Positions 25,901 through 40,900 of a stretch of DNA of 64,000 nucleotides are shown piece by piece. The DNA lies in assembly GCA_009746045.1 (NCBI GenBank), contig RPFO01000131.1, forward strand, positions 443,551-507,550, in the 5' to 3' direction. This stretch comes from Mesostigma viride. Taxonomy: Eukaryota; Streptophyta; Mesostigmatophyceae; Mesostigmatales; Mesostigmataceae. How positions within the stretch are numbered: position 1 is the first letter of the stretch; each line of letters begins with the position of its first letter. Under the pieces are notes generated by a model. It saw only the letters and a program-made list of their open reading frames with translations. It was not told where the DNA came from and did no database searches. A program made the position numbers and the translations under genes.

Positions 25901-28900
25901 GCTGCCAACCGCGGCAGCCGGGTGTGCCGCCGGGCCCGCGCCAGCGGTACTTCCTGGCTGAAACGCCATGCCCCCATGGGCACTGTCATCTGCCCCCGAC
26001 GACTCCGACTCCTCCGTGTCCGTGTGGTCCTCCATCTCCAACAGGTCCCCAATTGGACGCAGCTGCAAGTCCCCCACGCCGCACAGGTGGCCCCCATCCG
26101 CGCTGCCACCTGGAAACGGCCTCGTCCGATCCAACCGGCTTTCCTCCTCACCATAGCCACGCTGGCTGCGGCGGCGTTGCAGGGAGACGGAGCGGACCGG
26201 TGGATGGCCTGACCCTGAGAGAGCCCGGCGTGGTGCCGATGGGGGGGACCGGCTGCAGCCCATGGTGGGCTGAGCGGTGGGCTGAGTCGGCTCCGAGTGG
26301 GCTTGACCTGCCGCCTGCCCAGCATGGGCGCTCTCGCTGCTGCCGGCCGGGGCATCCGCACCCCTTTCCCCCGCTCCCTTGTCCGCATCCTCATGCGCCC
26401 CGCTGGCCTCATCCTTTGAGGGTGGATGTGCCGGTGCCCGTCCAGGGGTCATCCCTCCATCCCCGGCCATCTCATCGCTGGATGCATGAAACCGCTTCTG
26501 GGGACCTGACTTGAAGGACGGCGCCACGTGTCCATCGGCCGACTGCTGCCCGTCCCCATGCCATGCCAACCCCCCTCCTCACCCCCGTGCCCCACCCCCC
26601 CCTTGAGCGCGCGGGCGTACTCGGTGATCTCAGCGTTGCCCGTCCCCATGGACAGCTCGAAGCGAAGCGCGTCCACCTCGCGCAGGTACAGGTCGGCGGC
26701 CATCCATTGCGCCAGGTAGGACACATCACGCGTCACCGCCGCCGTCACGCTGGGGTTGCCATCACTGGCCGAGCAAAGAGAAGACAAGCGGCAGGCAGGA
26801 GGTGGGAAGAGGGGGCGACCCCAATTTGTTGGGCAAGCGGCAGAGGGGGCCACAACGTGAACACATTGGGCACGCGTTCAAGGGGACCGAGACACCCAAG
26901 GGGGTCGTGGCAGTGCGGAAGCAGCATGACCACAGACCTGCCTGTAGCATCGGGGTTTAGCCAACTAATCTCACCTTCTAAATACTCAACGAGATTTGGA
27001 TGGATTCGATGATTTGGAGTGCATTAGGGCGCAGTTCAGGCTTGATCCTTGGCGCAGCGCCCTTCCAACAATCAATCATCGCATTAGAAAAACTATAACC
27101 GATAGATGCAGAGACCTGGAGACCTTCTGAGGCATACAGCACCGGCTTGCCAGGCCCTGCCTCTATCGCCCTGCTTTGCCGTGTATTCCACCCCACCGCA
27201 CCCCATCCCATGCCCATGCCCATGCCCATGCCCATGCCCATGCCCATGCCCATGCCCATGCCCATGCCCATGCCCATGCCCATGCCCATGCCCATGCCCA
27301 TGCCCATCATTGCATTACCGAAACCCAAGCCGAGACCCCCACGACGTCCGGCTTTCATGTTGAAGTGTACCCCCGCGGCATCTAGCAATTCCGACTAGTT
27401 TCAAGTGCGCACCAGTCAAAGTAGTTACCCTTCGCACAAACTCCAGCCACACATTTTCGTAACCGCCCTTTTGGCACCGCAGGAACTATTCTGTCTGATT
27501 TGGCCAGATTTCATCCAAGGAATCGGGAAGGAAAAACGGTGGAATCAGGAAGGGAAAACGGTGGAATCATATGCAACCTGAACCTGGCTGACCTAGTACA
27601 ACACTATCGTCCGTTTAAGTCCGGCTTCACGGCCCATGCGACGCCATGTCGACCCGCCCATGCATAGCAAGCTTTTGCGCTAGGGAGGCAAGTGTAGAAA
27701 AACAGCGTCCCGTTGTCTTTGAATTGCCAAGAACCGTGCGAGCCTGCCCTTAGCCTCATCGCCTGATTGCCAGCCAGCAATCGGCAAGCCATGGCGGTCT
27801 GGGATACTTACGAACAAGACGGCAAATCAACCCATTTTCAAGTTCAAGATGCGGCCTCCGTAGAACAGAATCGAATGCTTGCTTTTTGCTGGAATTTTGG
27901 CGAGCAATTCAAACGAGCCAATGGAATGGTTTGGAATTTCGAATTAGGCTAGGGACTCGCGGCCTTGCAGGACGCATATTGCACGACGACACACTTTTGG
28001 TCGCTTCTTCAAATAAAAATCTGACTGCGGAGTTCATACATTAAGTGTTTGTGATATTAATTTTGATTTAAACGCATAGCCTGCAGCCTTTTCGTGTTCG
28101 ATTCCGGAAGCCTGTTGACTTGAAGGTGCTGGTAGGGAGCGACAAGCACTTGCATTGACCATAAGCTGGCCAGCCCGGCGAAGCGTTTAATCCTGAGGAT
28201 GTTATACACGCTAGAGATGTCTACATGCGCGGGGTGAAGCCCATGCATCGATAGTTGCAGGTTGCAGTCCCGTCCCCTTCATACCCTCAAGCAATAACGT
28301 TGCCTGGGGCTCGTCGTCATCCGTTCGCACAATTCGTGCGACACAGACCACGTCGCCGGCATCTGGTGTCCAGTGCATGTAATCTTCTTGCTCACGCGTG
28401 CTAAGCGGCAATCATCGGTAAGCCGACATTGTGCAGACGATCTTTTTTGTTTTGCATATGCTTTTTGACGCTGCATTTCCAATTCGATCTCGACAATTGT
28501 CGTAGTGCGCCGGGGCCTACTTTGTGGAACAACATTCACGCTGTGAATCGGCATCTCCAATCCCTACTTCCCTCCAACCATGCCACGACAGCAACATGCC
28601 GCAGCTTGTGGCGAGGAGGTCTTCGCCACAGGTTACATTTGCAAAGTTCAGAGATGGTACGTGCCACAGTAATGTACATTACTAGGCACTACAGCTTATA
28701 ATTGTTTACTACTAGCAATAATTTTCACTAGCTATGCCAGCATGCAGTTCTCACTGTCGTTAGCATGCCTGAGCTGCGTCAACTTAAATTTCCAATTTGT
28801 CCAGCAATGTAGCACCTGTGAGCCTTACGATGTATATTCATTTTATAGATCAAGACAACAACGTTGGTTGATGCCATGCTTTATTAATTCACGTGGCGTC

Positions 28901-37900: not shown

Positions 37901-40900
37901 GTGCGTCGGGTGGGCTCGCTGCAGCCAGCCATGAGCACCTCGTTGCGCGCCTGAAAGGCCGCCTTAAGCTCCTTCATCTTCGCCGGTCCCCGCACGCGCT
38001 GCAGGCAGGCGTTCTCCTTGGAGTAGAAGAACTGTGAAGTAAGTGCACATGATATGGTAGGCAGGAGCATGAGCAAGCAAACATGCAAGTAAACAATGGT
38101 ATATAAGTGACAGCTCTCTAGCAATCACAACAATAGTGAGTTTACAACAACCCACCCACCCACCCACCCACCCACCCACCCACCCACCCACCCACCCACC
38201 CACCCACCCACCCACCCACCCACCCACCCACCCACCCACCCACCCACCCACCCACCCACCCACCCACCCACCCACCCACCCACCCACCCACCCACCCACC
38301 CACCCACCCACCCACCCACCCACCCACCCACCCACCACCACCCACCCACCACCCACCCACCCACCCACCCACCCACCCACCCACCCACCCACCCACCCAC
38401 CCACCACCCACCCACCCACCCACCCACCCACCCACCCACCCACCCACCCACCCACCCACCCACCCACCCACCCACCCACCCACCCACCCACCCACCCACC
38501 CACCCACCCACCCACCCACCCACCCACCCACCCACCCACCCACCCACCCACCCACCCACCCACCCACCCACCCACCCACCCACCCACCCACCCACCCACC
38601 CACCCACCCACCCACCCACCCACCCACCCACCCACCCACCACCCACCCACCCACCCCCACCCACCCACCCACCCACCCACCCACCCACCCACCCACCCAC
38701 CCACCCACCCACCCACCCACCCACCCACCCACCCACCCACCCACCCACCCACCCACCCACCCACCCACCCACCCACCCACCCACCCACCCACCCACCCAC
38801 CCACCCACCCACCCACCCACCCACCCACCCACCCACCCACCCACCCACCCACCCACCCACCCACCCACCCACCCACCCACCCACCCACCCACCCACCCAC
38901 CCACCCACCCACCCACCCACCCACCCACCCACCCACCCACCCACCCACCCACCCACCCACCCACCCACCCACCCACCCACCCACCCACCCACCCACCCAC
39001 CCACCCACCCACCCACCCACCCACCCACCCACCCACCCACCCACCCACCCACCCACCCACCCACCCCACCCACCCACCCACCCACCCACCCACCCACCCA
39101 CCCACCCACCCACCCACCCACCCACCCACCCACCCACCCACCCACCCACCCACCCACCCACCCACCCACCCACCCAACTAACCAACCACCCAACCACCAG
39201 GATTAAAAAGGGTAGACAACCAAAGATTACGGAGGGAAAAAAAAAGAAGCAGATACACAGACAAAATATGCTCTCTGAACAACAAGGCAGCAAGCTTTAT
39301 GACTTTTCTGTCACCTACAGCAGTAAAGCGAATGAGGCATCGCAGTCAGCCGCATCAAATGCATGCAATATAGATAGGACATTATAAACAGAAAGTACCT
39401 GTACGGTGTAGTCCGCCCAGCTGTAGAAGTCCGCCTGCCAGTAGGCCTGCACGGAGACGATGTCTTGCACCGCCGACACTGGAATGGCAGCGCAGTCTTC
39501 GCTGGCGATTAGCTCGATTACAGTTCTCGACCAGTGAACTGCCTGCGCCAGGTGCTCAGGCAGTTCATCGTCGCGCCACAGCCAATAGCCGCACAACACG
39601 ACTTCGTTCGTGTTGTCTACGTTTCCTGCCACCGCCCATCTCGGGTCTATTGCCTCACCTGGCTTTACTATGCACACTACCTCCAGAAAAAAGGGCTTGT
39701 TGCCCGGATCCTCGCTTCGGACCTGCACTACCGACCCTGGGGAAATAGCTAGCATTTCCCCCTCGCTATTCCTTCGCAAAGAGTGCACTATCGTGTTATT
39801 AGCTCTGGAATCTACGCGGGATCCTGGAAACCAAAATGCCGCGCCATCCACTGCGCCGGCAGCGGCATTTTTGCTCATTTTGAGCTTGGCCGGCTGCTGG
39901 GTAGGCGCAGGCGGAATGTGCCTACAGAAACTGGTGCTCGCGTAAACTGAAACAGCATTCCGTGACGCCATTATCGTATGCCCTGCAGCAAGTGTACGAG
40001 CTAGTGTAAAATGTAAATTATGACCACTTAAAAATGCGTGATGAGCGGCACGTTAGTTACGAGAAAATGTTCACAATGCATTATGCCTATTTGCAGCGCC
40101 GTATTTTCCAGCTACCTAATGCCAGCAAAATGCTTCCAAAGTTTCTATTTTCATGCCAGCGAGTTTTGCCACGACCGTTGGTGTAGATCCGAGTCCAAAA
40201 ACTACTCCCGTCTAGAAAAGGTTCTATGCTCGGAGTCCACGGAATCAGGAAGTCGGCCCGCAGTTGCCGTACAGATCCGGTAGTGACTCGTGAAGTGAAA
40301 GATTTGGGCAGATTTGGGCAGATCGGGTTTGGTCGATCCGGTCCTGGATCAGTCCGTATGCTTAAATTTGCGCGCCGTCCGTTGTACTTGAATTTTCAAG
40401 GGAAACGAATGTTGCCTCTTTCGGTAATGCAATGGCCCATGCCCATGCCCATGCCCATGCCCATGAGCATGCCCATGCCCATGCCCATGCCCATGCCACC
40501 GCCGATGCCCATGCCACCGCCCATGCCCATGCCACCGCCCATGCCCATGCCACCACCCATGCCCATGCCCATGCCACCACCCATGCCACCACCCATGCCC
40601 ATGCCACCGCCCATGCCCATGCCCATGCCCATGCCCATGCCCATGCCCATGCCCATGCCCATGCCCATGCCCATGCCCATGCCCATGCCCATGCCCATGC
40701 CCATGCCCATGCCCATGCCCACGCCCATGCCCACGTCCACGGTCATGCCCTGCCTTAATCGCCTCTCACCGGTCCCCCCCCATCCACGTGCCAATCGAGA
40801 TGGGTGCAGCGTCCAAGGGGAGCGGTTTCCCTGTGACAGCCACCAGTGCCGAGCTCAGCCGCCGCAGCAGCCGCGGCACTGCGCTCCACAGCGACTGCTC

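Follow-up and report, generated by a model that had tools for sequence, protein, structure and literature searches.

A transposon of 13,127 bp (plus strand, 27308-40434) was found in a 64,000-nucleotide stretch of the green alga Mesostigma viride (C1668:443551-507550, referred to below as the window), inside an intron of the gene for phosphoenolpyruvate carboxylase (PEPC). It very probably belongs to a family of DNA transposons with 16-bp inverted ends, a gene of RAG1/Transib type (gene 1) and a possibly BAH-like second gene (gene 2), whose ends would be joined with zero stagger at nearly any sequence. The absence of a target-site duplication in this family is nearly proven, and such insertion is shared by very few known cut-and-paste transposons.

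Ends, copies and empty sites

The first-pass annotation of the window had described a two-gene transposon with perfect 16-bp inverted ends, inserted in register and without trace into CCCATG arrays that are the target and not part of the element, and spliced over with the phase of the host gene restored. Each of these features was confirmed. Within the window the 16-mer end is matched twice exactly and once more at 3 mismatches, where chance would give 0.44 matches at up to 3 mismatches, and the arrays lie outside both ends, adjoining them in identical orientation and in register. The intron of the PEPC gene (minus strand; PF00311, E 7e-46) measures 14,005 bp, of which 878 bp remain once the element is taken out, and the splice GGGGACCG/GT...AG/TGATGGC restores the reading phase.

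The genome-wide search for facing pairs of the 16-bp ends, proposed in the same annotation as a check against a chance match, uncovered a family. In the one assembly searched (439.9 Mb, 2,243 contigs) the 16-mer at up to 2 mismatches was present at 551 places (252 + 299), against 93 (47 + 46) for the pattern read backwards, and the 33-bp A end at up to 2 mismatches at 114 places, against 0 for the control. Among the first 100 exact end places listed, 76 formed 38 facing pairs and the 24 single ends were left out of the junction counts. All 38 pairs were fetched; 36 span 3.45-4.93 kb and two span 12.3 and 12.5 kb. Together with the window they make 39 copies, part of a larger family, with 35 distinct junctions, the surplus being due to contigs present more than once or to alleles of a single site. 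The termini CATTG...CAATG are seen in the window and in all 38 copies fetched, the latter having been selected by exact ends.

In the short copy L032, about 365 bp (91%) and 219 bp (98%) correspond to the ends of the window element, and the interior is a different one. The median identity among the 36 short copies is 99.5% at the B end, 100% at the A end and 99.5% over positions 370-1150, where some pairs are identical; since they are near-identical, these copies must have spread recently. That they are separate autonomous elements was rejected, as neither gene was matched within the 36 fetched (by eye, best candidates scored); the longest open reading frames (ORFs) of the two short copies inspected are repeat-coded. 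Counting the window, 11 places have the core exon of gene 1 at 97% identity or more, and there are partial and diverged copies as well. The long copy C1106L encodes both genes, with gene 1 exons 99.2-100% like those of the window, indels in two exons and an in-frame stop in gene 1, and among the best candidates scored neither gene was matched in the 12.5-kb copy.

Matches between the end of the left flank and the start of the right flank were counted at the 35 junctions. A match of one base was seen at 12 (8.7 expected), of two bases at 0 (2.5 expected) and of three at 1 (0.4 expected); four bases matched at 2, five at 0 and six at 1, the four- and six-base cases being micro-array sites. When joined, the flanks were in phase with 0% indels in arrays of period 4 (L038), 6 (the window), 40 (L051) and 68 (L045). 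In L039, another array of period 4, indels amount to 2% over the whole array, but the junction itself is in register; L053, which is a variant of L045, has 1% indel.

Uninterrupted empty-site copies of the joined flanks were present in the genome for all three junctions tested of the 35, picked as their flanks looked repeated (spanning all 110 bases, at up to 100% identity), and the best matches had exactly the length of the joined flanks. One empty copy of the L052 site lies 3.4 kb away on the same contig and in the same direction, as the other long terminal repeat of a retroelement would. A duplication offset by deletion was ruled out, because it would not yield 100% identity over 110 bases. 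The in-register CCCATG junction of the window is thus explained by insertion without target-site duplication.

Gene 1, gene 2 and the proposed transfer

Gene 1 has at least six exons on the plus strand, from about 30275 to a stop at 36047, and its protein has a reported identity of 100% to the annotated jgi/Mesvir1/8069, with one differing residue seen by eye. The candidate catalytic residues are D116, D205 and E544. Its plan, D-D-CxxC-HxxxxH-E with C(2)C and H(3-4)H between the second D and E, is that of RAG1/Transib; the H-H-E register is backed by a profile alignment and a structural alignment, and both D were assigned by motif only. The gene 1 family profile matched RAG1/Transib at P about 1e-4, and the top 31 structural matches of the gene 1 model, itself a poor one, were all RAG1/RAGL or Transib. 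Gene 1 thus probably encodes a DDE transposase of RAG1/Transib type, with weak-to-moderate remote homology behind the kinship, and it would be the recombinase that moves the element.

Several results weigh against this assignment. The HH probability is 57-61% and the alignment spans H-H-E but not the first two D. The AlphaFold model has a mean pLDDT of 36, its Foldseek E is only 0.018, and helical models can attain its structural Z by chance. HMMER with the gene 1 profile found no solved relative in PDB (one irrelevant match, E 2.1), and Pfam scans gave nothing above cut-off and no transposase family. The evidence as a whole comes from copies in the genome, with no transposition observed. In global mode, hhalign with the gene 1 profile gave nothing (E 0.95), and no hAT, piggyBac or Harbinger chain was among the VIA matches listed, an absence that excludes nothing. 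Outside Mesostigma no relative of gene 1 (single sequence and 5-row profile) or of gene 2 was found in 5.8 billion proteins, with the best 7,992-7,995 candidates scored, nor was one found in IMG/VR with the gene 1 profile. The relative read from L076 (C1446:2683100-2685300) resembles the uncharacterised Pfam family DUF1280 over 36 residues, at an E of 0.0031 that is below cut-off.

It is rather unlikely that gene 1 is a DDE transposase unrelated to RAG1/Transib, its resemblance being convergent or helical. The low pLDDT, the sub-threshold Pfam result, the HH probability and the position of the first two D outside the profile alignment would fit such an origin, but several partly independent comparisons (one re-aligns the structural library of another) agree on the family and have H-H-E in register.

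Gene 2 is encoded on the minus strand, convergently to gene 1, in four exons from 39971 to 36786, and its splicing is supported by the annotated protein P0004. A three-row profile of its family had only 3 matches in PDB, all of them BAH-containing chains, at E 0.21-0.61, and a BAH-like nature of gene 2 is possible and unproven. Single members reached E 0.05-0.09 against the BAH profile, below the 30.8-bit cut-off, and no BAH match was obtained with three pieces from distant relatives of gene 2, which speaks against it. Kelch and PHD were not matched in gene 2. In the annotated protein P0006 (Mesvir1/19604), ankyrin repeats are fused with parts of gene 2, which may mean that a copy has landed in a host gene, or that the gene model is chimeric.

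Relatives of the two genes form convergent pairs, about 2-17 kb apart, at nine loci (lists compared by eye), that is at 9 of the 18 gene 1 relative loci, for which the best 64 of 135 candidates were scored, and at 9 of the 28 gene 2 relative loci. Since nine convergent pairs in 440 Mb are not a matter of chance, the association is likely to be old. The gene pair is present in part of the distant relatives; in the lists compared, no partner was seen nearby at the other 9 of 18 and 19 of 28 loci, and the association may not be a strict one.

The length of a target duplication reflects the distance between the joining points of the two ends. In the proposed mechanism a RAG/Transib-type transposase would bind the 16-bp ends and cut the element out (cut-and-paste), after which the two 3' ends would be joined to directly opposite bonds of the target. 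Such blunt strand transfer, with zero stagger, would leave no gap to fill and therefore no duplication. The transposase would read no visible target motif, losses of one terminal base would be wear at the joint, and gene 2, in analogy to the PHD of RAG2L, may serve to hold the complex on chromatin. One RAG2L PHD binds methylated histone H3, according to the available part of PMC7204232.

The ends could instead be moved by a tyrosine or serine recombinase, or by a rolling-circle enzyme, encoded elsewhere, with gene 1 a mere passenger, and this is improbable. Zero duplication is usual for such enzymes, catalysis by gene 1 is deduced from homology only, and the 36 fetched short copies have no gene match. 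On the other hand, the 16-bp inverted ends have CA..TG and no target motif accompanies them, Pfam found no tyrosine or serine recombinase and no helicase in gene 1, gene 2 or the nine further ORFs of the element scanned, and gene 1 has the RAG1/Transib signature and sits in long copies with the same ends.

Target choice and known transposons

The first-pass annotation had also supposed a preference for hexanucleotide repeats, and this did not hold. Only 3 of the 35 distinct junctions lie in microsatellites (one hexanucleotide, two tetranucleotide) and 5 in tandem arrays of any kind, or 6 if L053, a variant of one of them, is counted; most lie in other DNA. Micro-arrays make up 2.9% of bases in the window minus its own target arrays, 3.7% in the window outside the element and 7.2% in the outer flanks L001-L030 (two array sites included), so that three or more such junctions have a P of 0.08, 0.14 and 0.46, respectively. 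No marked base preference was seen from -10 to +10 at the 35 junctions, neither AAATTT nor A/T. A transposon that targets microsatellites, to which the array junctions might point, is therefore very unlikely; a mild bias to tandem repeats may exist and is compatible with the 35 sites. A fixed duplication hidden by the repeat (6 bp or a multiple of it), as in a Polinton-like or Dada-like element, can be dismissed: a duplication of 6 or 12 bp would be indistinguishable from none if only the window were considered, but none was present at the arrays of period 4, 40 and 68 or at unique sites, and the three empty-site sets are exact.

Owing to its zero-length duplication the transposon was placed in no named superfamily. 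In the available part of PMC12730594 the CMCT clade (CACTA/EnSpm, Mirage, Chapaev, Plavaka, ESTA, Lanisha) has C(2)C and H(3-4)H motifs, mostly 5'-CA..TG-3' termini and duplications of 2-5 bp; the motif plan and the termini are matched here, whereas the duplication is 0. For Transib and the RAG-like elements (ProtoRAG/RAGL) duplications of 5 bp are given in the part of PMC7204232 at hand, in contrast to 0 here (none of the 35 junctions has a 5-bp match). They resemble the element in a DDE enzyme with CxxC and HxxxxH before E and in inverted ends starting with CA, and RAGL also in its two convergent genes, the partner being a chromatin reader with PHD there and perhaps a BAH-like one here. Their ends, however, are CAC.., like recombination signal sequences, whereas those of the element are CATTGCATTACCGAAA; RAG2L comprises Kelch and PHD, neither of which was matched in gene 2; and they occur in animals, the element in a green alga.

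Helitrons and Cryptons make no target duplication. The same is described, in the part of the source at hand, for IS607-type elements. All three differ from the element in its inverted ends and DDE-like gene, and their enzymes were not seen in the scanned proteins; Helitrons, with Rep/helicase, A-T insertion and no inverted ends, are further set apart by the lack of an A/T preference and of a helicase in those proteins. Spy, of the PHIS group, has inverted ends. It also shares with the element the lack of a target duplication, but it has an AAATTT preference and a single Harbinger-related transposase (available part of PMC4482050), as opposed to no motif, a RAG-like transposase and two genes. 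For Harbinger relatives 0 bp is given in PMC12730594 as available; with respect to a Harbinger/IS5-like transposase, gene 1 has no Pfam transposase match, and its best structural matches, from a poor model, are RAG1/Transib.

In the literature searched (titles and starts of abstracts, with Repbase outside the search) no other zero-duplication report of such an element was found, and no such element appeared under Lanisha, transposons entering microsatellites, BAH in transposons, superfamily surveys, RAG/Transib in green algae or Mesostigma transposons. The Mesostigma genome paper, in its available part, gives broad repeat classes only. The element is read as a new RAG/Transib-like lineage with its ends joined at directly opposite bonds. 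The chances are evenly balanced that it represents a separate green-algal superfamily related to RAG/Transib, with a recombinase, a convergent BAH-type reader and zero-stagger, sequence-blind transfer, unprecedented in the RAG-related clade; gene 1 would then have a BAH-type reader where RAG1 has the PHD-bearing RAG2.

If true, a RAG relative with zero duplication would mean that the spacing of the joining points can collapse to none, a structural question that can be addressed against the RAG1 and HzTransib structures, and the element would provide an enzyme for traceless insertion without a fixed target. The survey of RAGL in PMC7204232, in its available part, required a duplication of 3-8 bp, and surveys with such a demand would miss zero-duplication elements. 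A convergent pair of a recombinase and a possible chromatin reader outside animals bears on the origin of RAG1-RAG2.

Feature coordinates and minor observations

Table 1. Positions in the window of the transposon, its genes and its surroundings, with the loci of paired relatives
Feature	Position	Strand	Remarks
Whole transposon	27308..40434	+	perfect terminal inverted repeats; main blocks 96-99% to the 12,258-bp copy C1106:10588680-10600937
Left terminal inverted repeat (B end)	27308..27323	+	16 bp, starts CA, CATTGCATTACCGAAA
Right terminal inverted repeat (A end)	40419..40434	-	16 bp, reverse complement of CATTGCATTACCGAAA
(CCCATG)n target array, left, host	27202..27307	+	17.8 copies, 99% matches
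(CCCATG)n target array, right, host	40435..40733	+	in register, less perfect
PEPC host intron holding the element	26765..40769	-	
Gene 1, first recognised exon	30275..31423	+	start codon uncertain; GT-AG splicing; annotated Mesvir1/8069 begins inside the exon
Gene 1 exon with first D (31848-31850) and second D (32115-32117)	31758..32142	+	D by motif
Tetranucleotide array and 8.5 copies of a 186-bp minisatellite, gene 1 intron	32263..34078	+	
Gene 1 exon with CxxC (34197-34208)	34162..34706	+	
Gene 1 exon with HxxxxH (35238-35255) and E (35313-35315)	34869..35342	+	
Gene 1 exon	35472..35609	+	
Gene 1 last exon	35751..36047	+	stop included
Gene 2 exon 1	39399..39971	-	BAH-like region (candidate)
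(ACCC)n array, gene 2 intron 1	38150..39198	+	about 264 units
Gene 2 exon 2	37714..38031	-	
Gene 2 exon 3	37419..37576	-	
Gene 2 last exon	36786..36846	-	stop included; ends like annotated P0004 except one residue
Loci of paired gene 1/gene 2 relatives	C17, C1690, C1833, C446, C1468, C1481, C1912, C1835, C1		

The split CCCATG array is near-perfect in its left part and degenerate in its right part, which has CCACCG variants. The sequence GGAATCAGGAAG is present once near each end of the element on the same strand (27541-27552 and 40241-40252) and is a candidate subterminal binding site; its left copy lies beside a 22-bp direct repeat (27519-27569).

The copies L061 (C1435:2410481-2415079) and L069/L070 (C1464:86393-98917) occupy one insertion site on two contigs, with an element of 4.6 kb in the former and 12.5 kb in the latter, which we read as allelic or haplotig variation through internal insertions. 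L040 and L041 (C136:239340-243510 and 303274-307482) lie 60 kb apart in opposite orientation and have 400 bp of flank in common beyond the B end but not the A end, reflecting either an inverted duplication that broke at the element or an error in the assembly.

The A ends listed, 90 exact and ten with one mismatch, of 114, include 7 of 100 without the outermost base. In these seven copies, L081-L087 (C1 twice, C224, C335, C380, C1106 and C1446), the terminal G of the A end is gone and the flank starts with c or t; since the flanks are all different, the single-base losses were independent events.

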